The notes below the pieces were generated by a model. The model ran no database searches, was not told the DNA's origin, and saw only the letters and a program-made list of their open reading frames with translations. 33,661 nucleotides of DNA from an uncultured delta proteobacterium (GTDB taxonomy: Bacteria; Myxococcota_A; Polyangia; Polyangiales; Polyangiaceae): the NCBI GenBank assembly GCA_903906315.1, contig CAIVJW010000200.1, positions 1 to 33,661 on the forward strand, written 5' to 3'. Of the stretch, positions 5,728-29,201 are shown in pieces. A program made the position numbers and the translations under genes. Numbering within the stretch: the stretch's first letter is position 1; every line of letters starts with the position of its first letter.

Positions 5728-5751
5728 TGGCGCGGGCCTTCCGCGCGCGCC

Positions 5752-7491
5752 TCAACGCTCGAGGTAGACGTCGAAGTCGTCGATCGACCGCGCCAGTCGG
5801 TAGCGCGACGCGATCAGGGTCGCGAGCGCGGGGAAGTCCGGGAGCGTGTCGGCCGAGTCGAGGGTCGATCCGGTGACCATCGGAAACACGTCGCGGTGCT
5901 CGACGACGATCGCCGCGGGCGGCGAGGCCTCGAGATCGCGCATCATCACGTCGCGGAGGCCCGCCTTCGCCCACGCGACGCGCTGGGGCACGTCGTAGAG
6001 GAAGCGCGTCGAGGGGCGGCGACCCGCGAGGTCGTAGATCACGGGCTCGAACCCCCACACGAAGATGGGGCGCCCGGGCGGCACGCTGCCTTGCACGAAC
6101 GCGGCGACGGCGCGGTTCTGCCCGGCGTCGACGTCCGCGACCGACGCGAGCTTGTCCCAGCCCGCGAGGTCGCCGCGGCGCGCGGTGGCCAGCTCGAGGC
6201 GCTTGCGGCAGCGATCGAGGAAGGAGTCGGGCGTGTCCTTGGTCGCCGTCCGGCCGAACGAGACGGCGACGACGCCGATCCCGAAGACCACGGCGACGGC
6301 CGGCCCGCGGCGGACGCAGGCGTCGAAGAGGCGGACGTAGCCATAGCCGGCGAGCAGCGCGGTGACCGGCCAGGTGGCGCCGTAGTGGTAGGGGAAGAAC
6401 TTGCCCTGCAGGATCACGCCCAGGAGGTGAATGGCAATCACGCCGGCCACGACGAGGACGCCGGGCCGCGCGCGCCGCGACGGCTGCAGGGCGAGCAGGA
6501 GCAGGAAGCCGACCGTGGCGATGCTGCAGTACTGTTGCAGCCACTCGGTGAAGCCCCACCACACCATGCCCATGACCGACTCGCCCACCCACGACAGCGC
6601 CGTGTAGTGGGGCGTGAAGACGAAGAGCACCTGCCGGAGGTCGCCGAGCGCGCCGCGCGCCGCGAACCACAGCACGACGAGGACGATCGGCGCCGCGCCG
6701 CCGGCCGCGATCGCGGCCACGGGGCGCCACGCCGCCGCGCGCAGGAGGGGCGAGTCGCCGGGCGCGGCCGCGCGCGTGGCGCGCGACAGGGGGACGAGCG
6801 CGAGCGGCAGCGCGCCGCCGGCGCGCGGCGGCTTGAGCAGGCCGGCGAAGCCGAGGAGCGCCCCGGCGCCCGCCCACCGCGCGAGGTCGGCCCGCGACGG
6901 CGCGGCCCCCGCCTTCGGCGTGCGCAGCCCGAGGAGCAGGGCGAAGATCGTCGCGACGCCGCCGAACGACTCCGGCTGTGCGGTGTGCCAGAAGTCGAGC
7001 TGGGCATGCACCAGCACCGCGATCGCGCCGCCCACGACCCCGATGCGCGCGTCGCCCCACTCGTCGCGCGCGAGGCGCGCCATGGCGCCGACCATGGCCA
7101 GCAGCGACGCGACCTCGAGGAGCCGGATCCCGCGCTGCGAGGCCCCGAAGATGGCGCGCGCGAGGGCGTACACGACGAAGATGCCCGGGGGCTTGAAGTC
7201 CCAGGCGTCGCGGTACGGCATGCCGCCCTCGGTGACGACGCGGCCGACCATCGCGTAGATGCCCTGGTCGCGCCCGTAGTCGAAGAGCGCGATCTGCAGC
7301 AGGCAGAACGCGGTGACGAGGGCCGCCACGCCGATCAGCACGGCGTCCGCGGTGCGCGCGAACGCAGGCCTCGCGACCTCGGGAGCCTCCGCCGTCTCGG
7401 CGGCCCCCCCGCGGCGGGAACCCGCCTCGGCGCCCTCGGAGGCCTGAAGCGCCGCCGTCTCGGCGGCCTCGTCGACGTGCCGGGAGTCCAC
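5752..7491 (-). CDS. GT39/GT83-type glycosyltransferase, membrane
   Basis: 579-residue polytopic protein. A short acidic/Ala-rich N-terminus is followed by TM1 and the loop FDYGRDQGIYAMVGRVV...DAWDFKPPGIFVVYAL, the characteristic first loop of PMT_2 glycosyltransferases, where the acidic residue in DQG is the expected catalytic position and KPPG marks the following helix. A soluble C-terminal segment ends the protein. No ATG sits upstream of TM1 in a sensible place. GTG at 7491 is taken as the start, since the frame extending to 7764 is Arg/Pro-rich and runs into the divergent gene. It is convergent with the GT39 gene at 3454-5727 and divergent from the exported protein at 7611. With its neighbours it suggests an envelope glycosylation locus. 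Confidence 0.83.
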   Translation of the reverse strand: MDSRHVDEAAETAALQASEGAEAGSRRGGAAETAEAPEVARPAFARTADAVLIGVAALVTAFCLLQIALFDYGRDQGIYAMVGRVVTEGGMPYRDAWDFKPPGIFVVYALARAIFGASQRGIRLLEVASLLAMVGAMARLARDEWGDARIGVVGGAIAVLVHAQLDFWHTAQPESFGGVATIFALLLGLRTPKAGAAPSRADLARWAGAGALLGFAGLLKPPRAGGALPLALVPLSRATRAAAPGDSPLLRAAAWRPVAAIAAGGAAPIVLVVLWFAARGALGDLRQVLFVFTPHYTALSWVGESVMGMVWWGFTEWLQQYCSIATVGFLLLLALQPSRRARPGVLVVAGVIAIHLLGVILQGKFFPYHYGATWPVTALLAGYGYVRLFDACVRRGPAVAVVFGIGVVAVSFGRTATKDTPDSFLDRCRKRLELATARRGDLAGWDKLASVADVDAGQNRAVAAFVQGSVPPGRPIFVWGFEPVIYDLAGRRPSTRFLYDVPQRVAWAKAGLRDVMMRDLEASPPAAIVVEHRDVFPMVTGSTLDSADTLPDFPALATLIASRYRLARSIDDFDVYLER

Positions 7492-7597
7492 GGCCGCTCT
7501 CGTACTACAGCGCTGACGGCGGGGCGGGGGGAACCTGCCGCGCCGCGGGTTTGCGCCCCCCGTCGCGCTCGTTCGGCACGCGCCCCTCGCGGTGTGG

Positions 7598-7603
7598 TAG
7601 GCA
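7598..7603 (+). promoter_or_regulatory. Possible -10 element (TAGGCA)
   Basis: GTGG-TAGGCA ends 7 nt before GTG 7611. GGAGG at 7605-7609 is too close to that GTG for normal ribosome binding, so a near-leaderless transcript would fit better. No -35 was recognised. Confidence 0.25.
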
Positions 7604-7610
7604 CGGAGGC

Positions 7611-8669
7611 GTGCGGCGGGGTCCGGATCGACGGTGCGTTGCGCGGCGCGGGCCGATCGCCGCGTGCGCCGCGCTGGTCGCGATCTCGGCGCTCTCGGGC
7701 GCGTCGGCGCAGGTGCGCGTCGACCCCGGCGTCGCGATCGCCCGGCCGATCGCTTCGCCGCCACTCCCTCGCCTGGTCGTGCGTCGCGCGCCGGACGCCG
7801 CCGACTGCCCCGACGCGCCCGCCCTCGCGATCGAGGTGGGCCGCCACATGGGTCGCCCCGCCCTCGACCCCGACGCGCCCGCGTGGATGCCGGCCATCGA
7901 CGTCGCCATCGCGCGCGAAGGCGCGGCGTTCTCGGCGATCGTGGCGATCGGCGGTCGCGAGCGCCGCCTCGCGGACCCGGGGCCCGGCTGCGCGGGCCTC
8001 GGCGACGCGCTCTCGGTGACCCTCGCCATCCTGCTCGATCGCGAGGGGCCCCCGCCGCTGCCGCTGCCGCCTCCGCCGTCGGCCCCGCCGCCGCCCCCGC
8101 CCGATCGCGCCGCCCCGCCTCGGCCGGTGGCCCCGCCTCGGTCCGACCCGCGCGTGGCCGTCGCCGTCGAGGGCGCGTTCACCTACGGCCTCCTCGGCGC
8201 GGCCGCGCGGCCCGCGTTCACCGCCCTCGTCGAGCTGCGCGTCGCGGGCCCGATCTGGGTGGCGCCGGGCATCGTGTGGGCGCCCGCGCGATCGATCGAT
8301 TTCCCGCCCGGGGCCGTCGACGTCTCGCTCGGCGCCGGAACCGTGCGGGCGTGCGCTGCCGCGATCGGTGGCGCCGGCGACGGGCCGTCGATCTCGGCGT
8401 GCGTCGAGCCGTCGATCGGGGCCCTGCGCGGCACCGGCACCGGCTACGCCTCGGACGCGAGCGGCACGCGCCTGTGGGCGTCGGTCGGCCTCGGCCTCGT
8501 CGGTCGCGGCCCGATCCTCGGCCCGCTCGGGTGGTTCGCCCACGCCGCCGGCTTCGCGCTCGTGGGCCCGCGCGAGCAGTTCGACGTCCGCGGCGTGCCC
8601 GGGATCGCCTACGATCCGAGCCCGGCAGGCGTCTCGGCCGGCGCCGGCCTGCGCCTGTCGATTTATTGA
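7611..8669 (+). CDS. Exported protein of unknown function, upstream of ECF sigma factor
   Basis: 352 residues from GTG 7611. The N-terminus is basic (MRRGPDRRCVARRG), followed by a hydrophobic stretch and a likely signal peptidase I site after SGASA. Next come about 110 residues with a conserved-looking Cys pair (ADCPDAP and GPGCAG), a Pro-rich hinge near residues 147-190, and a Gly/Ala-rich C-terminal half with alternating hydrophobic patterning that could be a small outer-membrane barrel or surface beta domain. Such exported proteins next to ECF sigma genes are common in myxobacteria. I do not recognise a family. ATG 7551 is an alternative start but would add a Ser/Arg-rich leader before the signal peptide. 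The sigma gene starts 38 bp downstream, so cotranscription is likely. Confidence 0.7.
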   Translation: MRRGPDRRCVARRGPIAACAALVAISALSGASAQVRVDPGVAIARPIASPPLPRLVVRRAPDAADCPDAPALAIEVGRHMGRPALDPDAPAWMPAIDVAIAREGAAFSAIVAIGGRERRLADPGPGCAGLGDALSVTLAILLDREGPPPLPLPPPPSAPPPPPPDRAAPPRPVAPPRSDPRVAVAVEGAFTYGLLGAAARPAFTALVELRVAGPIWVAPGIVWAPARSIDFPPGAVDVSLGAGTVRACAAAIGGAGDGPSISACVEPSIGALRGTGTGYASDASGTRLWASVGLGLVGRGPILGPLGWFAHAAGFALVGPREQFDVRGVPGIAYDPSPAGVSAGAGLRLSIY

Positions 8670-8670
8670 T

Positions 8671-8684
8671 GGGGCCCGGGCCCC
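8671..8684. promoter_or_regulatory. Perfect 14-bp palindrome between exported-protein gene and sigma gene
   Basis: GGGGCCCGGGCCCC is a perfect palindrome starting 2 nt after the stop codon of the exported protein and ending 23 nt before ATG 8708. In RNA it could fold as a 5-bp stem with a 4-nt loop, so it might be an attenuator or a protein-binding site. Confidence 0.35.
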
Positions 8685-8707
8685 CCCTCCACTCACCCCG
8701 TCGAACG

Positions 8708-9259
8708 ATGTCCGAGCCGACCTTCCGCGAGGTCTACGAGGAGCACTTCCGCTTCGTGTGGCGGTCGCTGCGCAGGCTCGGTGTGCCCGAGAGCGACGTC
8801 GCGGACGCAGTGCAAGACGTGTTCCTCGTCGTGCACCGGCGCCTCGGCGACTTCGAAGGACGATCCAAGGTGAGCACCTGGCTGTACGGCATCTCGCTGC
8901 GCGTGGCGCGCGACCGCAAGCGCTCCGCGTTCGTGCGGCGCAACGCGTCCGACGACGAGCCGATCGAGGACCGCGTCGACGATCGCGCCGACGTCGGTGC
9001 CGAGGCCGAGCGCCGCCAGGGCCTCGCCGTGCTCGAGGCGATGCTCGACGAGCTGTCGCTCGACCAGCGCGCGGTGTTCACGCTCTTCGAGCTCGACGGG
9101 CTCTCCAGCGAGGCGATCGCCGAGCTCTGCGAGATCCCGATAGGGACGGTGTACTCGCGGCTGCGCCTCGCGCGCGAGGCGTTTCAGCGCTCGCTCGCGC
9201 GGCGGCAGGCACAAGACCAACACAGGCTCGCCCGGGTGGGCGCGGGAGGCGGCCGATGA
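8708..9259 (+). CDS. ECF RNA polymerase sigma factor
   Basis: 183-residue extracytoplasmic-function sigma factor. Region 2 (about residues 8-75) has FREVYEEHFRFVWRSLRRLG, DVADAVQDVFLVVHRRL and STWLYGISLRVARD, the DNA-melting/-10-reading part. Region 4 (about 115-170) has LDELSLDQRAVFTLFELDGLSSEAIAEL and IPIGTVYSRLRLARE, a helix-turn-helix for the -35. The two are joined by an acidic linker (DDEPIEDRVDDR), as usual in ECF factors. Its stop overlaps the start of the next gene by ATGA, the classic coupling of an ECF sigma to its regulator. The exported protein upstream and VWA lipoprotein downstream suggest an envelope-stress or cell-surface regulon. Confidence 0.95.
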   Translation: MSEPTFREVYEEHFRFVWRSLRRLGVPESDVADAVQDVFLVVHRRLGDFEGRSKVSTWLYGISLRVARDRKRSAFVRRNASDDEPIEDRVDDRADVGAEAERRQGLAVLEAMLDELSLDQRAVFTLFELDGLSSEAIAELCEIPIGTVYSRLRLAREAFQRSLARRQAQDQHRLARVGAGGGR

Positions 9260-10167
9260 ACGCGCCGAAGCGATGGCTCGATGGGGGCGGATCGCCCGAG
9301 ACGCGCGACGTCCTGCGTGCGGGGCTCGAGCTGGAGCCTCCGCCGGGGGCGAGCGACGCCGTCTGGGGGGCGATCGCGGCGAAGATCGGCCCGGTCGGCG
9401 GCGGGGGAGGCGGCGGCGGGCCGGCCGACCCGGCCACGAGCGCCGTCACCACCAAGGCCGCCGGCGTCGCGAAGGCGGCCGGGTCGGCGAAGGCCGCGGG
9501 CCTCGCGACGGCGGGCCTCGTCAAGTCGCTGTTCGCCGGCGCGGCCGTCGCCGGTCTCGGCCTCGCCGCGTACTCGGTGGCCGTCCCCGCGGGCCCCGCG
9601 CGCGTCGATCCGGCCGCGGTCGCGATCGCCCCGCCGGCCGCGCCGCCCGCGATCGCGGCGCCGCCCGCCCGCGCGCCCGCCGTCGTCGACCCCGGTCGCG
9701 ACCCGGACCCCGCGCCGGTCGCGGCGAAATCGGCAGCGATTCCGGCCGATCCAGCGGTCGTCCGCGCCCCCTCGCCCCTCGACCGTGCCGGCGCCGGCGC
9801 CGCGCCCTCGGGCGACGCGCGCCCCGCCGCCAACCCCCCGCCTCCCGTCGCGACGGACGAGGGGGCCGGCGGGGCGGCCGCCGTCGCGCGCGCCGAGCGT
9901 GCCAGTCGCCTCCGCGAGGAGAGCCAGATGGTCGGCGAGGCCCGCGCGCTCCTGCGGAGCGGCCAGTCGCTCGCCGCGCTCCACCAGCTCGATCAGGCCC
10001 GCGCCCGCTTCCCGGGCGGCATGCTCGGCCAGGAGCGCGAGGCCCTCGCGATCGAGGCGCTGTCGCAGAGCGGCCAGCGCGCCGCCGCTCGCGAGCGGGC
10101 CGCCGCCTTCCTTCGCGCGTACCCCTCGAGCCCCCACGCGACGCGGATGGAATCGTTCGCGGAGTGA
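9256..10167 (+). CDS. Putative membrane anti-sigma partner with TPR-like C-terminus
   Basis: 303 residues, start ATG overlapping the sigma factor stop (ATGA). Residues 1-45 form a short cytoplasmic part (MNAPKRWLDGG...DAVWGAIAAKIG), followed by a poly-Gly tract and an Ala/Lys-rich stretch. One TM helix sits near residues 91-110. A long Pro/Ala periplasmic linker leads to a helical C-terminal region (about 215-303: EARALLRSGQSLAALHQLDQARARFP...) that looks like two TPR or YbgF-like repeats. No zinc HxxxCxxC anti-sigma motif is present. Role as anti-sigma is inferred from coupling, topology and common myxobacterial organisation, not from a catalytic or binding signature. The gene is followed by a dyad symmetry at 10170-10185. 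Confidence 0.7.
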   Translation: MNAPKRWLDGGGSPETRDVLRAGLELEPPPGASDAVWGAIAAKIGPVGGGGGGGGPADPATSAVTTKAAGVAKAAGSAKAAGLATAGLVKSLFAGAAVAGLGLAAYSVAVPAGPARVDPAAVAIAPPAAPPAIAAPPARAPAVVDPGRDPDPAPVAAKSAAIPADPAVVRAPSPLDRAGAGAAPSGDARPAANPPPPVATDEGAGGAAAVARAERASRLREESQMVGEARALLRSGQSLAALHQLDQARARFPGGMLGQEREALAIEALSQSGQRAAARERAAAFLRAYPSSPHATRMESFAE

Positions 10168-10169
10168 CG

Positions 10170-10185
10170 ATCACGATTTCGTGAT
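10170..10185. promoter_or_regulatory. Inverted repeat ATCACGA-TT-TCGTGAT
   Basis: Perfect 7-bp arms separated by 2 bp, beginning 2 nt after the stop of the anti-sigma-like gene and ending 53 bp before ATG 10239. It is AT-richer than the surroundings and has the size of a dimeric regulator's operator. As RNA it could also form a 6-bp stem with loop ATTT, a weak terminator. Confidence 0.45.
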
Positions 10186-10238
10186 GGCAGCGCCCGCTGC
10201 CCCCCACACACCGATCAAGCCCCAAGGAGGCGCCCGTC

Positions 10239-12182
10239 ATGCACCATCCTCTCCGCCGCTCCACGTCCGCGCTCGCCCTCTTCGCCGTCGTCGGCCTCAT
10301 CGGCTGCGACTCCAACGTCACCAGCGTCGGCGCCGAGACGACGACGGGCGGTGGCACCACCGGGTATACGACGACCAGCACGGGCCAGGGCGGCGCCGGC
10401 CAGGGCGGCGGCGCGCAGGGCGGCGGCTCCAGCACGGGCGGCGCCGGTCAGGGCGGCGCGGCTCCGGTCGGCCTCGTGAACAAGGTCGACATCCTGTTCG
10501 CGATCGACAACTCGCGATCCATGGCCGACAAGCAGGCGATCCTCTCGCGCGCGATTCCCGATCTCGTCAATCGCCTCGTCAACCCGTACTGCGTCGACGT
10601 CAACGGCGTCGCCATCGCCGAGCAGCCCGCGGGCCCGCTCGACCCGTGCCCCAACCTGACGACGCGCGAGTTCGCGCCCGTGGTCGACTTCCACCTCGGC
10701 ATCGTGACCTCCAGCCTCGGCGGCCACGGCTCCGACGCGTGCCCCGACGTGACCAAGGACTCGTGCGACGCGGCCGACAACACGACCAACAACGACCACG
10801 GTCACCTCGTCACGCGGCTCGACCCCTACGGCAATGGCACGGTCACGACCTACCAGAACCAGGGCTTCCTCGCCTGGGATCCAGGCCAGAAGATGAACCC
10901 GCCGGGCCAGAAGGACGTGAGCGCGCTCGTCGGGTCGGTCAAGGGCATCGTCGAGGGCGTGGGCCAGATCGGCTGCGGCTTCGAGTCGCAGCTCGAGGGC
11001 TGGTACCGCTTCCTCGTCGACCCGGAGCCGTACGAGAGCATCGCCGTCGTCGGCGGCAAGGCCACGCCCACGGGCATCGATCAGAACGTCCTCGCCCAGC
11101 GCGCGGCCTTCCTGCGCCCCGACTCCCTGCTCGCCGTCATCATGCTGACGGACGAGAACGACTGTTCGGTCAACGAGTCGGGCCAGTTCTACCTTGCCAA
11201 TCAGCTGGCGAGCGCGAATGGCACCCCGTTCCACCTGCCGCGCGCCCGGTCGGAGTGCGCGAAGGACCCGAACGACCCGTGCTGCATGTCGTGCGGCCAG
11301 GCGCAGGGCAACTGCCCGGCCGACCCCGAGTGCGACAAGGGCCCCGGCGACGACGCGTCCGACCCGATCAACCTGCGCTGCTGGGACCAGAAGCGCCGCT
11401 TTGGTATCGACTTCCTCTACCCGACGGACCGCTACGTGCAGGCCCTCAGCTCGCCGCAGATCGCCAATCGCGCCGGTGACCTCGTCGCGAACCCGATCTT
11501 CACCGATCTCTCCAAGAGCGGCGCCACGGTCCGCGACCCCGGCCTCGTCTTCCTCCAGGGCATCGTCGGCGTGCCGTGGCAGGACGTCGCCCGCGACCCG
11601 AAGGACCTCGGCAAGGGCTTCATGCCGGCGGGCGACCTCAACGCGCTGGAGGGCGGGCCGCGGTGGCACGCGATCCTCGGCGACCCGGCGACGGGCGTGA
11701 AGCCGACCGACCCGCTGATGCAGGAGTCCGAGGTCCCCCGCCAAGGGCAGAACCCCGTCACGGGCGACGCGCTGGTGCCCCCGAGCGTCGGCCCCGGGTC
11801 GAACCCGATCAACGGCCACGAGCACGAGAAGGCCGCGGGCGGCGACCTCCAGTACGCATGCGTCTTCCCGCTGCTCCCCGGGACGGAGCGCGACTGCACG
11901 GCGGCGTGCACCGGGGCCTGCGACTGCCAGGACGAGGCGAACCAGAACCCGCTCTGCGACGCGAACCCGAGCGACTCGGGCAAGCCGACGAAGCAGGCGA
12001 TGGCGAAGGCGTACCCGAGCCTGCGTGAGCTCGCGGTCCTGAAGGGCCTGGGGACGAACGCCGTCGTCACCTCGATTTGCCCCGCGCAGGTCACCGACGC
12101 CACGGCCCGCGACTACGCCTATCGCCCCGCGATGCGCGCCTTCGTCGAGGCCGCCCAGACCCGCCTGAAGAAGGCCGAGTAG
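10239..12182 (+). CDS. VWA-domain surface lipoprotein with GQGG linker
   Basis: 647-residue exported lipoprotein. The signal peptide ends in the lipobox GLIGC (C23). Residues about 30-75 are a Gly/Gln/Thr-rich flexible linker with GQGG repeats. A von Willebrand A-type fold follows, with a MIDAS motif D90-x-S92-x-S94 in FAIDNSRSM. The C-terminal 300 residues are Cys-rich (CCMSCGQ, NCPADPEC, DCTAACTGACDC), implying disulfides outside the cytoplasm. The family is typical of Polyangiales and probably mediates metal-dependent binding at the cell surface; the ligand is unknown. A strong AAGGAGG at 10224-10230 lies 8 nt before ATG 10239. It is the last gene of the sigma factor module, 71 bp after the anti-sigma-like gene. 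Confidence 0.85.
   Translation: MHHPLRRSTSALALFAVVGLIGCDSNVTSVGAETTTGGGTTGYTTTSTGQGGAGQGGGAQGGGSSTGGAGQGGAAPVGLVNKVDILFAIDNSRSMADKQAILSRAIPDLVNRLVNPYCVDVNGVAIAEQPAGPLDPCPNLTTREFAPVVDFHLGIVTSSLGGHGSDACPDVTKDSCDAADNTTNNDHGHLVTRLDPYGNGTVTTYQNQGFLAWDPGQKMNPPGQKDVSALVGSVKGIVEGVGQIGCGFESQLEGWYRFLVDPEPYESIAVVGGKATPTGIDQNVLAQRAAFLRPDSLLAVIMLTDENDCSVNESGQFYLANQLASANGTPFHLPRARSECAKDPNDPCCMSCGQAQGNCPADPECDKGPGDDASDPINLRCWDQKRRFGIDFLYPTDRYVQALSSPQIANRAGDLVANPIFTDLSKSGATVRDPGLVFLQGIVGVPWQDVARDPKDLGKGFMPAGDLNALEGGPRWHAILGDPATGVKPTDPLMQESEVPRQGQNPVTGDALVPPSVGPGSNPINGHEHEKAAGGDLQYACVFPLLPGTERDCTAACTGACDCQDEANQNPLCDANPSDSGKPTKQAMAKAYPSLRELAVLKGLGTNAVVTSICPAQVTDATARDYAYRPAMRAFVEAAQTRLKKAE
10344..10461 (+). repeat. 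Gly-rich linker-coding repeat (GQGG)
   Basis: Degenerate repeats of ggccagggcggcgc type encode GQGGAGQGGGAQGGG and similar. Near-identical coding recurs in the partial lipoprotein at 33490-33661. Confidence 0.7.
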
Positions 12183-12204
12183 CCGCCGCCTTCCTCGCGG
12201 CGCG

Positions 12205-12233
12205 GAGGCCGGGCTCCCTCGGGGCCCGGCCTC
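12205..12233. terminator. Bidirectional terminator-like hairpin
   Basis: A perfect 10-bp stem GAGGCCGGGC / GCCCGGCCTC (12205-12214 and 12224-12233) with a 9-nt loop lies between the convergent ends of the VWA lipoprotein (12182) and the PRPP synthetase-like gene (12241). No U-tract follows, as is common in very GC-rich bacteria. Confidence 0.65.
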
Positions 12234-12240
12234 GACGCGT

Positions 12241-13170
12241 TCAGGTCCGCGCCACTTCCTGCGCGAGCAGCTCCACCACCGATCCGATCGCGCCGGGCTC
12301 GCCCGCGAGGGCCTGACTGCCAGGGTGCGAGTCCGTCCCCCCGATCGTCGCGAAGACCCCGGCCTTTCGGATCACGTCGAGCGAGTCGCCCGGCAGGACG
12401 AGGTGGGTCGCGATGGCGTGCACGCGCGTCGCGCCGGCCCCGAGGTAGGCGCGCCCGGCCTGCAGCAGCGTGCCGCCGGTGCGGATCATGTCGTCGTAGA
12501 TCACGACCTCGCGGCCGCGCACGTCGGCGTTCACGCCCGTCACCGACAGCTTGCCCGAGTCGCTCTCGCGCTTCTTGTAGACGAAGGCCGGCTCGACCCC
12601 GAGCGTGCGCGCCAGGCTCTGCACCCATTTCGCGCGCCCGGCGTCCGTCGCGCCGAGCAGGTAGGGGCGGTCGCCTATCAGGGCGCGGATCGCCCCGGTG
12701 ATCACGGGGGCGCCGTAGAGGTGCCGAGTGACGTGGCTGTCGCCGAAGTAGAACTCGATGCCGTCGGTGTGGAGATCGAAGAGGAACACGCGATTGCCGG
12801 CCTCGCACGGCGGGATGGCCGAGATGAGGAGCGCGCGCGACTTGGCCGTGACGACCTCGCCGGGCAGGACGGCCCGCTCCATCGTCGAGTAGCCGAAGTA
12901 GGGCATGACGAGCGACATCGACCGCGCGCCGGCGCGCGCCAGGGCGCAGCCGAGGTCGAAGATCTCGAGCCAGTCGCTCTCGCGCGGCGTCCCGCCGAGC
13001 ACGACGACGTTGCGACCCCAGCAGTCGTCGGCGAGGCGGAGGTAGCGCTCGCCGTCCGGGAAGCTCTTGCGGATGACCGTGCCCCGGTCGAAGTCGCCCG
13101 CGGCGAGGAACCGGTCCTCGAGGTACGCATAGGAGGGGATGGTGAGCAGGAGCTTCTTCCGGGAGGGCAT
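12241..13170 (-). CDS. prs: Ribose-phosphate pyrophosphokinase, divergent type
   Basis: 309 residues. Expected reaction: ATP + ribose 5-phosphate to PRPP + AMP, feeding nucleotide, histidine and tryptophan synthesis. Family signs are FPDGE (38-42), a metal-site DLH (D132-H134), and the PRPP loop VVIYDDMIRTGGTL (about 223-236). The flexible-loop segment is unusual: PYFGYSTMERA...GEVVTAK replaces the bacterial class I YARQDRK, and LFDLHTDGIEFYFGD replaces VDLHAAQIQGFF. These features, including T-S/M-ER and the FYFGD ending, are closer to plant class II PRPP synthetases, which do not need phosphate and accept other nucleotide donors. Activity is likely but class is inferred. It is divergent from phosphofructokinase with a 113 bp gap. 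Confidence 0.85.
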   Translation of the reverse strand: MPSRKKLLLTIPSYAYLEDRFLAAGDFDRGTVIRKSFPDGERYLRLADDCWGRNVVVLGGTPRESDWLEIFDLGCALARAGARSMSLVMPYFGYSTMERAVLPGEVVTAKSRALLISAIPPCEAGNRVFLFDLHTDGIEFYFGDSHVTRHLYGAPVITGAIRALIGDRPYLLGATDAGRAKWVQSLARTLGVEPAFVYKKRESDSGKLSVTGVNADVRGREVVIYDDMIRTGGTLLQAGRAYLGAGATRVHAIATHLVLPGDSLDVIRKAGVFATIGGTDSHPGSQALAGEPGAIGSVVELLAQEVART

Positions 13171-22423: not shown

Positions 22424-23215
22424 TCAGCGCCCCCGGAAGTGGGCGGGACGCTTCTCGATGTAGGCGGCGAGCCCCTCGGCCGCGTCGTCCGTGCCGAAGA
22501 GCTCGGCCTGCAGCTCGCGCTCGAGCGCGAGGCCCTGCTCGAGGCCCATCTCGAGGCCGGAACGCACGGCGCGCTTGATGCGTCCGACGGCGAGCGTCGC
22601 CTTGTTGGGCAGCGCGAAGTCGTGCGCGTACTCCATGACGCGCGCCATGAACGCCTCGTGGTCGGGCGCCTCCCAGATGGCGTTCACGAGCCCATACGCG
22701 AGCCCCGTCTCGAAGTCGAAGGTCGACCCCTCGACCATGAGCTGGATCGCGCGCGACGCGCCCACCGCGCGCGCCAGCCGCTGCGTGCCGCCGGTGCCGG
22801 GCAGGACGCCGAGCGTGACCTCGGGCAGGCCCATCTTGCCGGCGCCCTTGCGGGCGACGCGCAGATCGCAGGCGAGCGCGATTTCGAGCCCGCCTCCCAC
22901 GCAATGGCCGTTCAGCGCGGCGATGCAGAGCTTCGGGGTGTGCTCGAGGCGCAGGAGCGTCTCGTTGGCGTGCAGGCAGAAGTAGTATTTGAAGGTGGGA
23001 TCGGCCTCGCGCAGCATGTTGATGTTCGCGCCCGCCGAGAAGAATCGGTCGCCGTGGCCGGTGATGACCAGCACGTGGACGTCGTTGTCGAACCTCGCGT
23101 CGAGGATGGCCGCGTCGAGATCCTTCATCATCTCGTGCGTATAGCCATTGACGGGCGGGTCGTTCAGCGTGAGCAGCGCGACGCCGGCTTCGGTCTGGTA
23201 GTCCACGAGGGCCAT
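22424..23215 (-). CDS. Enoyl-CoA hydratase/isomerase (crotonase family)
   Basis: 263 residues, typical crotonase length. The oxyanion-hole segments are FFSAGANINML and LNGHCVGGGLEIALACD. Both catalytic glutamates expected for hydratase activity are present, E111 (GGGLE) and E132 (GLPEVTLG), so trans-2-enoyl-CoA hydration is likely. The start at ATG 23215 leaves a standard N-terminus MALVDYQTEAGVALLTLN. Longer open frames upstream run antisense through the ACP/ketosynthase genes and are not real. It is divergent from the ACP operon with 123 bp between, so it could share control with that pathway or belong to general fatty-acid oxidation; the sequence does not decide. Confidence 0.92.
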   Translation of the reverse strand: MALVDYQTEAGVALLTLNDPPVNGYTHEMMKDLDAAILDARFDNDVHVLVITGHGDRFFSAGANINMLREADPTFKYYFCLHANETLLRLEHTPKLCIAALNGHCVGGGLEIALACDLRVARKGAGKMGLPEVTLGVLPGTGGTQRLARAVGASRAIQLMVEGSTFDFETGLAYGLVNAIWEAPDHEAFMARVMEYAHDFALPNKATLAVGRIKRAVRSGLEMGLEQGLALERELQAELFGTDDAAEGLAAYIEKRPAHFRGR

Positions 23216-23338: not shown

Positions 23339-23605
23339 ATGGATGCGTCCGAACTGCGCCAGCAACTGAAGGAACTCATGGTGTCCGAGCTCAACCTCGA
23401 GGGGAAGGCGCCGTCGGACATCGACGACGCGGCACCGCTCTTCGGGGAGGGCCTCGGGCTCGATTCGCTCGACGCGCTGCAACTGGCGATGTCGGTCGAG
23501 GAGCGCTTCGGCGTTCGCATCCCCGAGGGCGACGAGGCGCGGCCCATCTTTGCGTCGGTGAACTCGCTCGTGGAGCACATCGCCAAGGCGCAGGCGGCCG
23601 CCTGA
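23339..23605 (+). CDS. Acyl carrier protein, aryl-polyene-cluster-like
   Basis: 88-residue discrete acyl carrier protein. The phosphopantetheine site is S43 in GEGLGLDSLDALQL. The run DDAAPLFGEGLGLDSLDAL with a Gly-Glu-Gly before the DSL is the pattern I associate with carrier proteins of aryl polyene and flexirubin-type type II pathways, not with the fatty-acid ACP (GADSLDTVEL). It starts the operon: the first ketosynthase follows after 31 nt. It would carry the growing acyl chain between the two ketosynthases. No phosphopantetheinyl transferase is in the window. Confidence 0.9.
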   Translation: MDASELRQQLKELMVSELNLEGKAPSDIDDAAPLFGEGLGLDSLDALQLAMSVEERFGVRIPEGDEARPIFASVNSLVEHIAKAQAAA

Positions 23606-23636: not shown

Positions 23637-25862
23637 ATGCGAATCTGGGTGACGGGGATCGGCGTCGTCTCGCCGCTGGGGCGCGGGGCGGGCGTGACCA
23701 TGGACCGGCTCGTCGCGGGCGACCGCGCGTTCGGCGAGCTCGGGCTCTTCCCGGTCGCCGACATGCGCGTGAGGATCGCGGCCGAGGTGCACGGGCTGAC
23801 GGCCGACTTGGTCGCTCCGGCGGGCGAGGCCGAGGGCTGGTCGCGCACGGACGCGATGTCGGTGCTCGCGGTGCGCGAGGCGCTCGGGCAGGCCGGGCTC
23901 GATCCGCGCGCGAAGCCGGTCGACCTGATCCTCGGCGGCACCACCGCCGGCATGTTCGAGACCGAGGACACGCTCGCGTGGCTGTCGCGCGAGCCGAGCG
24001 CGATCACGCCGTTCAAGAAGATGCTCTCGCACCCGCTGTCGTCGACGGCGGACCACGTCCACGAGGCCGCGGGGCCGTTCCGGCGCACGCGCAGCCTGTG
24101 CAGCGCGTGCTCGAGCGGCGCGAACGCCCTGCTGCTCGGGGCGGCGTGGCTCCGCGCGGGGCTCTCGGATTGCGTGATCGCCGGCGGCGCGGACGGCCTG
24201 TGCCGGCTCACGTACACGGGCTTCGCGGCGCTCTCGGCCGTCGACGCCAACCCGTGTCGGCCGTTCGACCGGCGGCGCGCGGGGCTGAACCTCGGCGAGG
24301 GCGCGGGCTTCCTCGTGATCGAGCCCGAGCGCACGGCGCGCGCGCGCGGAGCGCGGCCGATCGCGGAGCTGCGCGGCTGGTCGGTCGGCGCCGAGGCGCA
24401 CCACATCACGAACCCGGAGGGCACGGGGCGCGCGGCCGCGCGGGTCATGCGCGCGGCGCTCGCCCGCGCGGGCATCGGCCCGGCCGATCTCGACTACGTG
24501 AACGCGCACGGAACGGCGACGCCGCTGAACGACTCGATGGAGGCCGCGGCGCTGCGCGAGGCGCTCGGCGCCGAGGTCGATCGCGTGCCCGTGTCGTCGT
24601 GCAAGGGGCAGATCGGCCACACCCTCGGCGCCGCCGGCGGCATCGAGGCTGCGATCTCGGCGATGGCGATCGATCGCGGCGTGCTCCCGCCGACGATCGG
24701 CCTCGAGGAGGTCGACCCCGCGTGCCGCCTCGTGCACGTCACGGAGGCTCGAAGCGCGAAGCTCCGCGCGGTGATGTCGAACTCGTTCGGCTTCGGCGGC
24801 ACCGACACGGTGCTCGTCTTCGCGGCGCCGGGTCACTTCCCGGACCCGGAGGCGGCGCCGCGGCGATCGGTCGTGCTCACCGGCGCGGCCACGGTCGGCG
24901 CGCTCGGCGTGTGCGGCACGGCGGCGAGCGGCGCGTACCTCGACCCGGGGCCTGCGCCGGCCGAGGGGCCGGTCGCGTTCCAGCCCGCCGATCACCTCGA
25001 GCTCTCTCGCGCGCGCCGGCTCGATCGCGCGGGGCGCCTGACGACGGTCGCGATCCAGGCGGCGCTCCGTGAAGGCGGGCTCGACCTCGCGGCCCCGGGC
25101 GTCGCGGAGACGACGGGGGCGCTCGTGGGCGCGTCCTTCGGCAGCGTCGATGCGTCGACGGCCTTCATGCGCCGCATCTACGACAAGGGCGCGAAGTACG
25201 CGAGCCCGGCCGACTTCCCGAACCTCGTGCCGTCCTCGCCGGTCGGGCATGCGTCGATCTACCTCGGGCTGCGCGGGCCCGTGTTCGCGATGGCGGACCT
25301 CGGTGCGACGGCCGAGTCGACCATCGAGTCGGCGATCGAGCTCGTCCTGGTCGGGGAGGCCGACGCGATGGTCGCGGGCAGCGTCGAGGAGGCGAGCCCG
25401 ATGATCGAGCGGTGTCTCGGCCCGATCTGCACGGGCATCGAGCACCGGGGCGTCCGCGCGGAGGGCGCGAGCGCGGTGCTCGTCGAGGCCGAGGACGCGG
25501 CGCGTGCGCGCGGGGGCCGGCCGCTCGCTCGGGTGGTCTGGTGGGGGTCGTGGCGCGGGGATCGCCCGGACGGCCTCGCCGAGGCGCCGCCGCCGCCCGC
25601 CGCGGGTGAGGCCTGGGTCCTGGTCGGTCGAGACGACGAGCGGCTGCGTGCGCTCGTCGCGCGATCGTCGTGGGCGGCCGCGCCGCAGCATGCGCTCGCA
25701 CCGCGATCGGGCGACCACGCGGGCGCCGGCGGCTGCGCGGTCGCCGCGGCCGTGTCGGCCCTCGCCGCGGGGCGGATCCGCGGCGCGCTCGTCGTCGGCG
25801 GCGCGCCCGATCGCACGTACGCGCTGCTGCTCGAGGCCGCGAGCGCCGTGGCCGGGGGATGA
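23637..25862 (+). CDS. Ketosynthase fused to an inactive ketosynthase-like domain (KS1)
   Basis: 741 residues; ordinary KAS II enzymes have about 410. Residues 1-400 form a complete type II ketosynthase with nucleophile C158 (CSACSSGAN), H291 (NAHGTATPLND), the lysine in SCKGQIGH, H328 (QIGHTLGAAG), and SFGFGGTD. From about 415, a second thiolase-fold copy begins (VVLTGAATVGALG), runs through LVPSSPVGHASIYLGLRGP, and keeps the helix TIESAIELVLVGEADAMVAGS. The nucleophile position is a glycine near residue 556, and the second half is strongly reduced: no HGTGT or GHTLGA is present. This looks like a chain-length-factor-like partner in cis. Condensation of malonyl-ACP with an acyl chain on the adjacent ACP is expected. 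Its stop overlaps the next ATG (ATGA). Confidence 0.88.
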   Translation: MRIWVTGIGVVSPLGRGAGVTMDRLVAGDRAFGELGLFPVADMRVRIAAEVHGLTADLVAPAGEAEGWSRTDAMSVLAVREALGQAGLDPRAKPVDLILGGTTAGMFETEDTLAWLSREPSAITPFKKMLSHPLSSTADHVHEAAGPFRRTRSLCSACSSGANALLLGAAWLRAGLSDCVIAGGADGLCRLTYTGFAALSAVDANPCRPFDRRRAGLNLGEGAGFLVIEPERTARARGARPIAELRGWSVGAEAHHITNPEGTGRAAARVMRAALARAGIGPADLDYVNAHGTATPLNDSMEAAALREALGAEVDRVPVSSCKGQIGHTLGAAGGIEAAISAMAIDRGVLPPTIGLEEVDPACRLVHVTEARSAKLRAVMSNSFGFGGTDTVLVFAAPGHFPDPEAAPRRSVVLTGAATVGALGVCGTAASGAYLDPGPAPAEGPVAFQPADHLELSRARRLDRAGRLTTVAIQAALREGGLDLAAPGVAETTGALVGASFGSVDASTAFMRRIYDKGAKYASPADFPNLVPSSPVGHASIYLGLRGPVFAMADLGATAESTIESAIELVLVGEADAMVAGSVEEASPMIERCLGPICTGIEHRGVRAEGASAVLVEAEDAARARGGRPLARVVWWGSWRGDRPDGLAEAPPPPAAGEAWVLVGRDDERLRALVARSSWAAAPQHALAPRSGDHAGAGGCAVAAAVSALAAGRIRGALVVGGAPDRTYALLLEAASAVAGG

Positions 25863-26740
25863 CCGCCTCGAGCGCGGCGGACCGACGGCTCGCGCGGGAG
25901 CTCCGGCGCGCCGTCCTCGCGGGGCTGGTCGCCGTGCTCGCGGGTGTCGGCTGCGGGCCCGCGCCCGCGCGCCCGGCGGCGCTCACGTGGCCGACGACGG
26001 CGGTGTGGCGCGGCGCCCAGGCTCGGCTCGCGCGGCTGCGCCTCGAGGCCGAGGGCGACGGCCCGCGCACGCTGCGGCTCGCGCTCAGCCTGCACGAGCC
26101 GTTCGGCGGCCGCGTGCTGGAGGCGCGCGGCGCGGTCGCGATCGCGCCGGCGCGCGCGGACGGGTCGTCGCCGGCGGGCGGCGCGCTGCGCATGATCCTG
26201 ATCGGTCCGGGGGGCACGACGGCGCTCGATCTGTGGGCGCGCGCGGATCGCTTCCGCTTCGCGGTCCCCGCGATCGATCTCCTGCGCAGGGGCGACGCGA
26301 GCACGCCGCCGTCCGAGCTGCGCGGCCTGCCCGTGGGCTTCCTGCGCTGGTGGCTCTTGCGCCCGGCCGCCGGCTCGTTGCTCTGGTACGAGCGCGAGGC
26401 GGCGACCTCTCGCTTCGTCCTGCGCGACGGCGCCGCGATCGTCGATCTGCGGCTCGGCGACGGCGGGCAGGTCGACGCCGTGCGCACCACGTGGGCGCGA
26501 TTCGAGGGGGAAGACGTCGTGGTCGCCGAGGAGCGCGTGGAGGCCAGCGGCGTCGGCTGCGCGACCGCGCGCTACGTCACGCGCATCCCGCTCGGCGGCG
26601 ACGGGCGCACGGGCTTGCCGCTCGAGATCGCGATCCGGTGCGAGGGCGTCGATCGCTCCCGCGCCCCGAATCCCCGTGCGTTCGAGGACCCCGACGCGCC
26701 CGCGCACGACGCGGGCCCGCCCCGCGGAGGTGCACCGTGA
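25859..26740 (+). CDS. LolA/LolB-like lipoprotein within the ketosynthase operon
   Basis: 293 residues, start overlapping the KS1 stop by ATGA. The N-terminus is basic then hydrophobic, with a probable lipid-attachment C32 (LAGVGCGP; the -3 residue is not an ideal Leu). The body consists of alternating hydrophobic beta-type segments, including LRMILIGPGGTTALDLWARADRFRFAVP, which resembles LolA/LolB-type half-barrels that hold a hydrophobic ligand. Aryl polyene clusters usually encode such a LolA-like protein for moving the lipid product to the outer membrane, so a similar job is proposed. No catalytic motif was found. Family assignment is from pattern only. Confidence 0.68.
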   Translation: MTASSAADRRLARELRRAVLAGLVAVLAGVGCGPAPARPAALTWPTTAVWRGAQARLARLRLEAEGDGPRTLRLALSLHEPFGGRVLEARGAVAIAPARADGSSPAGGALRMILIGPGGTTALDLWARADRFRFAVPAIDLLRRGDASTPPSELRGLPVGFLRWWLLRPAAGSLLWYEREAATSRFVLRDGAAIVDLRLGDGGQVDAVRTTWARFEGEDVVVAEERVEASGVGCATARYVTRIPLGGDGRTGLPLEIAIRCEGVDRSRAPNPRAFEDPDAPAHDAGPPRGGAP

Positions 26741-28602
26741 GCCATGCCTGCGTGATCGCCGCCGGCGCCGTCTCCGCGCTCGGCCTCGGAGAGGACGCCT
26801 ATCGTGCCGCCGAGGAGGGCGCCGTCGCTCGGTCCGGCCTCCGCCGGGACGACGACCTCGCCGCCGCCGGCCTCGCCAAGCCGTTCGCGGGGCGCGCGCC
26901 CGCCGTCCTGCCCGGCGGCGCGTTCGAGGACCGCGCCACGTCGCTGCTCGCGTGCGCGCTCGAACAGGCGCTCGGCGATCTCGACCTCGCGCGGCCCGGC
27001 TGGCGCGCCGATCGCATCGGCGTCGCGATCGGCACGTCGAGCGGCGGGATGCTGTCGGCCGAGCGCTTCTTCGCGCTGCGGGCCGCGGGCGCGCCCGACG
27101 CCGATCTCGCCTCCGTCGCGCGCGCCGCGACCTACTTCGCGCCCATCGACGACGCGCTCCTCGCCGCCGGGCTCGGCCCCGACGCGATCGTGGCGCGCGC
27201 CCACCTGCTCGCCGCGTGCGCGGCCTCGACCCTCGCGATCGGGATCGGCCTGCGGTGGCTCGATCGCGGCGCGTGCGACGTCGTCCTCGCCGGAGGCTAC
27301 GACGGCGTGAGCGTCTTCGTCGCGGCCGGCTTCGAGGTCCTGCGCGCGACCACGGCGTCGTCGCCGCGCCCCTTCTGCGTCGGCCGCGATGGCATGTCCC
27401 TCGGCGAGGGCGCTGGCGTCGTCGCGCTCGTCCGCGACCGCGATCTCCGCGGCGCGAAGGTCCTCGTCCGCGTCGTCGGCTTCGGCGCCTCGACCGACGC
27501 CGTGCACATCACCGCGCCCGACCGCACGGGCGGGGGCCTGGCGCGCGCCGCGGCCGCGGCGATCGCGGACGCGGCCGTCGATCCCGCGAGCATCGGCCTC
27601 GTGAGCGCCCACGCGACGGCGACCCCGTACAACGACGCGATGGAGTCGAAGGCGATAGCGCGCATCTTCGAGGGATCGCCCGCGCCGGTCGTGCACCCGT
27701 TCAAGGCGCAGATCGGCCACACGCTCGGGGCCGCCGGCGTGCTCGAGGCGCTCGCCGCCGCCCACGCGCTCGCGGTGGGCGTCGCGCCCGCGGCGGCCGG
27801 CGCGGGCCCGCACGACCCCGAGGCGTCGGCGGTGTTGCTCGAGCGCGGCGAGCGTCGGCCGCTCGAGCGCGCGCTCAAGCTGTCGGCCGCGTTCGGCGGG
27901 ACGAACGCGGCCCTGGTGCTCTCGACGACGCCGACCGCGCGCGCTCCGCGGCCTCCGCGCCCGGTCTACGTGCGCGCGATCGCCCACGTCGTCACGGCCG
28001 ACCTCGTCGCGCTCGCCGAGGCGACGGGCATCGCGCGCGACCGGCTCGCGCGGCTCGACGCGCTCGGCCGGCTCGGCCTGGCCGCGGTGGCGGCGCTCGC
28101 GACCGCGGTCGGGCGCGAGGCGATCGAGGGCGCCGGCATCGTGGCGGGCCACGCGCTCGCCACGATCGACACGAACGAGCTCTTCGACGCGCGTCGGCGA
28201 TCGCGCGGCGCCGCCCACGTCGAGCCTCGCCTCTTCCCCTCCACGTCGCCCAATGCCGTCGCGGGCGAGTGCGCGATCGCCTACCGCCTCACGGGGCCGG
28301 GCTTCGCCGTCGGCGGAGGGCTCGACGGCGGCACCGAGGCGCTCGGCCTCGCCGCCGAGCTCTGCGCGGCCGGCGACGCCGAGGCGATGGTGGTCCTCGC
28401 CGCGGACGACGCCGGCCCCGCCGCGCGCGATCTCCTGCGCGCCGCCGGCCTCGGCGACCGACCGCTCGTCGCCGGCGCCGTCGCGATGCTCGTCACCGCG
28501 CGCCCCGAAGGCGCCGTGCGCGAGGTCGGGCCGGACGTCGCGGTCGACCACGCCGGCGCCCCTATCGGCCACCTCGCGCTGCTCCGCTGGGCGGCGCCGT
28601 GA
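26737..28602 (+). CDS. Ketosynthase fused to an inactive ketosynthase-like domain (KS2)
   Basis: 621 residues from GTG 26737, which overlaps the preceding stop (GTGA) and has GCGGAGG at 26724-26730. Residues 1-400 are a ketosynthase with C161 (LAACAASTLA), H292 (SAHATATPYND, where canonical HGTGT is changed to HATAT), the lysine of FKAQIGH and H328. The first KS has its catalytic histidines at nearly the same positions. A second, half-length thiolase-like part follows (about 405-621) with PSTSPNAVAGECAIAYRLTGPGF; at the nucleophile place it has GLDGGTEAL (D530/G531), so no thiol. Like KS1 it therefore carries a non-catalytic copy. The two proteins probably act in one pathway with the ACP at 23339, perhaps in different elongation steps. 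Confidence 0.88.
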   Translation: MSHACVIAAGAVSALGLGEDAYRAAEEGAVARSGLRRDDDLAAAGLAKPFAGRAPAVLPGGAFEDRATSLLACALEQALGDLDLARPGWRADRIGVAIGTSSGGMLSAERFFALRAAGAPDADLASVARAATYFAPIDDALLAAGLGPDAIVARAHLLAACAASTLAIGIGLRWLDRGACDVVLAGGYDGVSVFVAAGFEVLRATTASSPRPFCVGRDGMSLGEGAGVVALVRDRDLRGAKVLVRVVGFGASTDAVHITAPDRTGGGLARAAAAAIADAAVDPASIGLVSAHATATPYNDAMESKAIARIFEGSPAPVVHPFKAQIGHTLGAAGVLEALAAAHALAVGVAPAAAGAGPHDPEASAVLLERGERRPLERALKLSAAFGGTNAALVLSTTPTARAPRPPRPVYVRAIAHVVTADLVALAEATGIARDRLARLDALGRLGLAAVAALATAVGREAIEGAGIVAGHALATIDTNELFDARRRSRGAAHVEPRLFPSTSPNAVAGECAIAYRLTGPGFAVGGGLDGGTEALGLAAELCAAGDAEAMVVLAADDAGPAARDLLRAAGLGDRPLVAGAVAMLVTARPEGAVREVGPDVAVDHAGAPIGHLALLRWAAP

Positions 28603-28724: not shown

Positions 28725-29201
28725 ATGCGCCGCCCGATCGCCCTCGCCCTCGCTCTCGCCGTCACCAGCCTGCTCGCGGGCTGCAACACGCGCTACATCC
28801 CCAACACCGACGTCGAAGACAACGACGAGAACCGCAAGGTCGTCTCGTTCTGCGAGAAGTACCGGCACGCGGTCGAAAACAAGAACATCGCCGCGCTGCT
28901 CAAGCTCGCCGCGCCGAACTACTACGAGGACGGCGGCAACGTCGACCCGAGCGACGACATCGACTTCGCCGGCCTGAAGGCCTACCTCCAGGGCAAGTTC
29001 CAGGACGCGCAGGCGATCCGCTACGAGATCCGCTACCGCAAGGTGGGCGAGCACCGCGGCTCGTACTACGTCGACTACACCTTCAGCGCGAGCTACCGCA
29101 TCCCCGGCATGAAGGGCGAGGAGTGGCACCGCAAGGTGGACGACAACCGGCTCGAGCTCGTCCCGTTCCAGGACGACTTTCGCATCATCGCCGGCATGTG
29201 A
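28725..29201 (+). CDS. Small lipoprotein with NTF2-like fold
   Basis: 158 residues. The signal peptide MRRPIALALALAVTSLLAGC gives lipidated C20. The mature part begins NTRYIPNTDVEDNDENRKVVSFCEKYRHAVENKNIAALLKL and continues with YEIRYRKVG and YYVDYTFSASYRIP, the helix-then-curved-sheet order of NTF2/SnoaL-like proteins. A catalytic role is not visible. The length is normal for this class. It lies 122 bp after the ketosynthase operon, so it may be separately transcribed, and is convergent with the patatin gene with a hairpin between them. Confidence 0.82.
   Translation: MRRPIALALALAVTSLLAGCNTRYIPNTDVEDNDENRKVVSFCEKYRHAVENKNIAALLKLAAPNYYEDGGNVDPSDDIDFAGLKAYLQGKFQDAQAIRYEIRYRKVGEHRGSYYVDYTFSASYRIPGMKGEEWHRKVDDNRLELVPFQDDFRIIAGM

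Follow-up and report, generated by a model that had tools for sequence, protein, structure and literature searches.

The window analysed here is a stretch of 33,661 nucleotides (positions 1 to 33,661, forward strand) of contig CAIVJW010000200.1 (assembly GCA_903906315.1) of an uncultured member of the Polyangiaceae. It contains a small operon encoding an acyl carrier protein (ACP) and two large ketosynthase (KS) proteins, KS1 and KS2, each of which carries a second, KS-like half on the same chain. KS1 and KS2 are probably two single-chain elongases, in which a catalytic KS is joined to its own inactive and truncated chain-length factor (CLF); they would serve an aryl-polyene-like pathway, and the fusion would fix the partners. 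This reading is based on the retention of the catalytic residues, the loss of the nucleophile in the C-terminal halves, a predicted PfaC-like fold, the existence of unfused counterparts and the KS tree. In the proposed mechanism, KS1 and KS2 would be two different elongating ketosynthases, each connected via a short linker to its CLF half, and a single polypeptide would thus provide the KS-CLF pseudo-heterodimer for which ApeO and ApeC are two separate proteins. The CLF half would supply the dimer face and the floor of the acyl tunnel and would set the chain length, while the fusion would prevent the swapping of partners between the two paralogous pairs present in a cell. Both pairs would act on the ApeE-type ACP of the operon, and enzymes from other loci would carry out reduction and dehydration. 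The probable product is an acyl chain that is aryl-polyene-like or unsaturated in some other way; it would end up in an envelope lipid, assisted by two predicted lipoproteins.

KS1-CLF1 (23637..25862, plus strand) has 741 amino acids and KS2-CLF2 (26737..28602, plus strand) has 621. The N-terminal halves of both proteins match PF00109 and PF02801, and the catalytic residues that an earlier note on this DNA had assigned, C158/H291/H328 in KS1 and C161/H292/H328 in KS2, are conserved in 32/32 KS1 rows and 28/28 KS2 rows of the family alignments, which confirms two intact ketosynthases. Lys323 of KS1 is also conserved (32/32 rows). The CLF1 half comprises residues about 412-741 (24870..25862, plus strand) and the CLF2 half residues about 405-621 (27949..28602, plus strand). 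When the isolated halves were compared with Pfam, as the earlier note had proposed, the outcome was divided: both exceed the PF00109 cut-off of 20.8 bits (46.0 bits for KS1, 22.8 bits for KS2), and neither matches PF02801. A PF00109 search of the source genome gives matches at the same KS1 and KS2 places. The likeness of the C-terminal halves to ketosynthases goes beyond chance, because their profiles match solved FabF structures with E values of 2.6e-29 (KS1) and 1.6e-15 (KS2); the second thiolase-fold stretch claimed before is thus present, and for KS2 it covers about one lobe only. The two halves are also homologous to each other (hhalign probability 99.4). The CLF2 half alone reaches 16.2 bits against PF13723 (Ketoacyl-synt_2; hmmscan), which is under the cut-off, and a PF13723 search of the source genome at E 0.001 gave no match.

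The nucleophile Cys is missing from both C-terminal halves throughout the family. At residue 556 of KS1, where the earlier note had correctly placed a glycine, Cys occurs in 0/32 rows (G 14, A 11, S 3, E 2, Q 1, F 1). The corresponding column of KS2 is also free of Cys (0/28; L 14, P 11, I 1, S 1, D 1), and the alignment puts it at L529 and not at D530/G531 as previously thought. Both proteins therefore have the general KS-CLF trait, namely Cys-His-His in the KS and a lost nucleophile in the CLF. The additional statement that His motifs are lacking from the C-terminal halves is inexact for KS1, in which His694 is found in 27/32 rows within a GxHxGAGG-like stretch near the expected GHTLGAAG place, its structural equivalence being unsettled. 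More specific identities were also considered: KS2 scores 220 bits against NF006618 (PRK09185), under the cut-off of 407, and a cispentacin-type AmcF identity for KS1 was rejected at 232.8 bits, under the cut-off of 325. An assembly frameshift joining two genes was likewise rejected, since the fused frame is open in 32/32 family loci. It is also present in records titled complete, those of Sorangium cellulosum So ce26 and So0157-2 and of Minicystis rosea.

AlphaFold2 models were built on alignments of 26 (KS1) and 22 (KS2) sequences and reached a pLDDT of 87.8 and a pTM of 0.93 for KS1, and a pLDDT of 92.5 and a pTM of 0.95 for KS2. The full-length structure prediction that the earlier note had called for agrees with its proposal: the best PDB match of both models in Foldseek is 6riw, the KS-CLF didomain of PfaC. 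The match extends over the whole chain of KS1 (E 8.2e-44, TMq 0.81, 887 columns) and of KS2 (E 1.9e-32, TMq 0.74, 751 columns), and the other Foldseek matches listed for the two proteins are single KS chains. According to the secondary structure of the models, the C-terminal half of KS1 has the first thiolase lobe together with a second one that is reduced, while that of KS2 is essentially one lobe and ApeC-like in size. A VIA-align comparison spanned residues 1-400 of each model and has no bearing on the C-terminal halves. KS1 and KS2 are therefore predicted to be KS-CLF proteins in cis with a fold like that of known KS-CLFs. Together with the PF00109 matches, the fold match upholds the central proposal of the earlier note, a catalytic KS joined in cis to an inactive CLF-like half, twice, in one ACP operon.

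The distribution of this arrangement was determined with the KS1 C-terminal half as query in 98 genomes of the family, including the source genome. At E 1e-20 or better, 52/98 genomes match, which is a lower bound for the module, because five genomes (G021, G028, G032, G037 and G066) match more weakly yet carry it (loci L108, L107, L109, L063 and L056, respectively). At E 1e-5, 96/98 genomes match, ordinary KS genes included. The 32 family loci tallied are 31 picked from the KS1 C-half matches plus the window, with stretches of at most about 20 kb read per locus. The C-terminal half is present in all of them by selection; what is informative is its position in the same frame as the KS in 32/32. 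Frames were taken from stop to stop; the matches in L018, L023, L025 and L029 and one in G080 run across one TGA, at which their frames end. KS2 occurs in 28/32 loci, with the C-terminal half detected in its frame in 27; three of the four loci lacking KS2 are at a contig end. Whole-chain homologues, which the earlier note had proposed to look for in other Myxococcota, do occur in the family. A scan of genome contigs led to 28 loci from Sorangium cellulosum, Polyangium, Minicystis rosea and metagenome-assembled genomes (MAGs) named Byssovorax, Sorangium, Polyangiaceae, Myxococcales, Polyangia and Deltaproteobacteria, the last of the 28 being a distant MAG of Dehalococcoidia, in which two KS-type genes stand apart. 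The phylum sample contains two fused KS1 loci in another family of the order (L096 and L097 of family f6), of which L097 lies at a contig end. A phage collection gave three records with partial and distant matches only.

Separate but overlapping genes encode the counterparts of KS1 and CLF in four genomes from other groups of Myxococcota, two of which also have a KS2 pair. The gene order is MMPL, KS2-like, CLF, ACP, KS1-like, CLF and a frame with glycosyltransferase and lipoprotein-like stretches in L098 (genome G219); KS2, CLF, ACP, KS1 and CLF in L099 (G104); and MMPL, ACP, KS1 and CLF in L101 (G312) and L102 (G100). The overlap of the KS and CLF genes measures 4 bp in L101, L102 and the two pairs of L098, and 8 bp for KS1 and its CLF in L099, lengths that depend on the chosen start codons. 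A profile of the four unfused CLFs matches at E 1e-126 or better in 4/377 phylum genomes, which are its own source genomes, and the next best match is at 4e-38. At 1e-25, 34/377 genomes match, and by place and frame length the others look like fused halves or other KS-type genes. The unfused form is thus rare in this phylum sample. In other families of the order (L103, L104, L105 and L106), a different KS gene is overlapped by a second KS-like frame, which is CLF-like and nearer full length. Elsewhere in the phylum, L111 (G252:C154:13000-27000) has a different fusion of 830 amino acids at 5276-7768, a single frame with two matches each to PF00109 and PF02801; a third KS gene comes after it.

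The unfused genes allow the origin of the fusions to be addressed. Trees were calculated for the KS halves (a careful tree of 38 rows and a quick tree of 59 rows) and for the CLF halves (a quick tree of 63 rows), with PfaC itself left out. In the careful KS tree, fused KS2 groups with unfused KS2 (support 99/95) and fused KS1 with unfused KS1 (94/89), and a single clade of fused KS1 and fused KS2 is rejected, as it costs 28.6 log-likelihood units (p-AU 0.002). The quick KS tree agrees, separating KS2 and unfused KS2 from the rest with 96 and placing KS1 with unfused KS1 (and L100) with 91. In the quick CLF tree, CLF2 groups weakly (72) with unfused CLF2. Because each fused KS pairs with its unfused counterpart and one fused clade is rejected, the KS1 and KS2 fusions are, on these sequence comparisons, best read as separate events, i.e., two joinings. 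More tentatively, two type II KS-CLF pairs of one bacterial lineage may have become single chains by parallel fusion across overlapping stop and start codons, selected against cross-pairing, in an undescribed envelope-lipid pathway that about half or more of the family genomes would possess.

Several other explanations have to be weighed against these readings. The trees bear directly on the proposal that a single fusion came first and that KS1 and KS2 are its duplicates, which would fit their shared layout and operon; this is very unlikely, because fused KS1 and fused KS2 each group with their unfused counterparts and a single fused clade is rejected. An ancestral fusion followed by two splits is possible, and less likely than two joinings. 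The C-terminal halves could also be structural remnants whose sole role is to stabilise a homodimer of two KSs, and not CLF partners. This would agree with the retention of about one lobe in CLF2 and with the end branches, which are somewhat longer in the C-half tree (median 0.55) than in the KS tree (median 0.43), the row sets being different. However, CLF1 contains the conserved stretches RR, FPNLVPSSP and GLxGP, both whole chains match the PfaC KS-CLF, and the counterparts are separate CLF-like genes adjoining KS genes, which leaves the remnant explanation unlikely. Finally, the system could be a cut-down polyunsaturated fatty acid (PUFA) synthase, with fused proteins derived from PfaC by domain loss. 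PfaC is the best fold match of both proteins, and PMC8436480 describes, for Minicystis rosea of the Polyangiaceae, a PUFA synthase whose Pfa3 contains KS and CLF. The source genome itself has a frame of 3918 amino acids with a KS, a second KS-like stretch and FabA-like domains, which looks like PfaC/Pfa3 (L052, G000:C48:1-15000). Yet the sequences point to a KS of the FabF type (384 bits against fabF versus 56 bits against PfaA for KS1; 206 versus 64 bits for KS2), unfused counterparts exist, and the ACP is free and of the ApeE type. A PUFA synthase origin is thus highly improbable, and the least probable of the explanations considered.

Two single-chain KS-CLF elongases that arose by two joinings are therefore preferred, and a number of observations weigh against this view. 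The pTM is no test of the interface between the halves. No CLF2 half was detected in the KS2 frame of L063; L049, which does not lie at a contig end, has KS1 and no KS2 in the stretch read; and the f6 locus L096 has KS1 and no KS2 within 18 kb. CLF1 is not joined to unfused CLF1 in the quick CLF tree, in which ApeC sits on a very long branch, and single C-half sequences gave no match to ApeC of E. coli with phmmer. The claim of two events is carried by four unfused KS1 and two unfused KS2 sequences only, on long branches, and fission may have occurred rather than fusion. In phmmer searches of the window and the family loci, the E. coli aryl polyene (APE) queries matched only KS and ACP genes and no ketoreductase (KR), dehydratase (DH), acyl-ACP ligase, acyltransferase, MMPL exporter or LolA, save for a single match of KR type in L034; such searches could overlook distant versions.

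Upstream of KS1, the ACP gene (23339..23605, plus strand) encodes 88 amino acids with a GLDSL serine motif, and the protein scores 77.3 bits against NF006617 (cut-off 70) and 64.8 bits against ApeE of E. coli CFT073. The first predicted lipoprotein (25859..26740, plus strand; 293 amino acids) is encoded between KS1 and KS2; its gene overlaps that of KS1 in ATGA, and its stop overlaps the GTG start of KS2 in GTGA. The lipobox Cys32 is invariant across 12 aligned sequences, and none of the 12 members has a Pfam match. A LolB or DUF3261 identity was rejected on this ground and on the score of at most 2 bits to any E. coli APE protein, and a likeness to BamD, the best PDB match of the profile (E 2e-4), covers only profile positions 55-123 and was not trusted. 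In L098 (10038-11801) and L101 (3405-5111), one stop-to-stop frame has a family 2 glycosyltransferase match near its start and a match to the first-lipoprotein profile (31 bits) further on. The second predicted lipoprotein (28725..29201, plus strand; 158 amino acids) is encoded downstream of KS2 and has no Pfam match. Homologues of the first lipoprotein are found by phmmer in 24/32 family loci and those of the second in 25/32, within the stretches read. A divergent enoyl-CoA hydratase/crotonase gene (22424..23215, minus strand; 263 amino acids, PF00378 with 163.5 bits) has homologues on the strand opposite the ACP in 19/32 loci, and only by synteny can it be counted as a member of the pathway.

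The source genome was also searched for a partner cluster encoding the remaining pathway steps, and none was found. MMPL adjoins only the unfused relatives L098, L101 and L102; the best match to the L101 MMPL in the source genome, on G000:C183, has 28% identity, and in the 19.9 kb around it the APE queries detected no KS and one weak short-chain dehydrogenase only. On the minus strand of L157 (G000:C308:22000-36000, 5265-9230), genes for a BioF/serine-palmitoyltransferase-like protein, a FabZ-like dehydratase, a KS and a FabG-like reductase stand in a row; as a partner cluster this KS-reductase-dehydratase row was rejected, being of another make-up. L051 (G000:C67:20000-39900, about 9283-12588) has a KS gene preceded by partial KS-like and FabA-like stretches, as well as several FabG-like reductases, a class III aminotransferase and radical SAM genes.

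KS-CLF complexes set the chain length in polyketides and polyenes, and the rules by which they pair are difficult to investigate. With a natural single-chain KS-CLF in a free-standing system, two pairs per operon and unfused counterparts, direct tests of pairing specificity and of how small a CLF can be become feasible, and KS1 and KS2 could be a template for engineered KS-CLF fusions. The operon is in addition a conserved, uncharacterised lipid-type operon of Polyangiaceae such as Sorangium, Polyangium and Minicystis. As far as could be found, the setting is new: a small operon that combines two KS-CLFs in cis with a free ACP of the ApeE type and a pair of predicted lipoproteins. The literature search, which left most subscription journals outside, gave no free-standing type II KS-CLF fusion and no account of this operon, including in the accessible text of PMC10132072 and PMC13291983.

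The same logic of KS-CLF pairing is found in type II polyketide synthases with KS-alpha and KS-beta (actinorhodin, 1tqy) and in Iga11-Iga12 of ishigamide biosynthesis (6kxd). Those complexes consist of two chains, with CLF chains of 415 and 378 amino acids, whereas the CLFs of KS1 and KS2 are fused and shortened. The cis layout itself is already described in PUFA and heterocyst-glycolipid synthases, and the earlier view that no described pathway has this architecture does not hold: PMC3098273 lists PfaC (KS-CLF-DH2), PfaBC fusions and HglC (KS-CLF followed by an acyltransferase, AT), and a 'PfaC-KS-CLF didomain', the subject of PDB 6riw, is named in PMC12895367. KS1 and KS2 resemble PfaC and HglC in having a catalytic KS followed by an inactive CLF in cis, as in PUFA synthases. 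In contrast, PfaC and HglC are type I megasynthase subunits with further domains, whereas KS1 and KS2 are free-standing, with a shortened CLF and a free ACP; they have KS/thiolase-type Pfam matches only, and thus not the tandem ACPs, AT and DH that PUFA synthases carry on the chain.

APE systems differ in other respects. Their KS and CLF are separate genes (PMC8253772), and ApeC is a separate gene in E. coli CFT073. According to PMC8358021, ApeC has one thiolase fold, has almost lost the second domain and is about half the size of its KS, and ApeR is a homodimer without a CLF. Here, both KSs carry the CLF half in cis, and the KR, DH, ligase, MMPL and LolA matches are lacking beside the operon, the KR-type match in L034 apart. 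For Minicystis rosea, two arylpolyene clusters were reported from genome mining (PMC8436480). A likeness to ApeO-ApeC may lie in the pairing of a KS with a half-size, one-lobe, inactive CLF, which is fused here and of which single sequences give no phmmer match to ApeC. Shared features are the ApeE-type ACP and the place of the first lipoprotein gene, which precedes KS2 much as the DUF3261 gene apeN precedes apeO.

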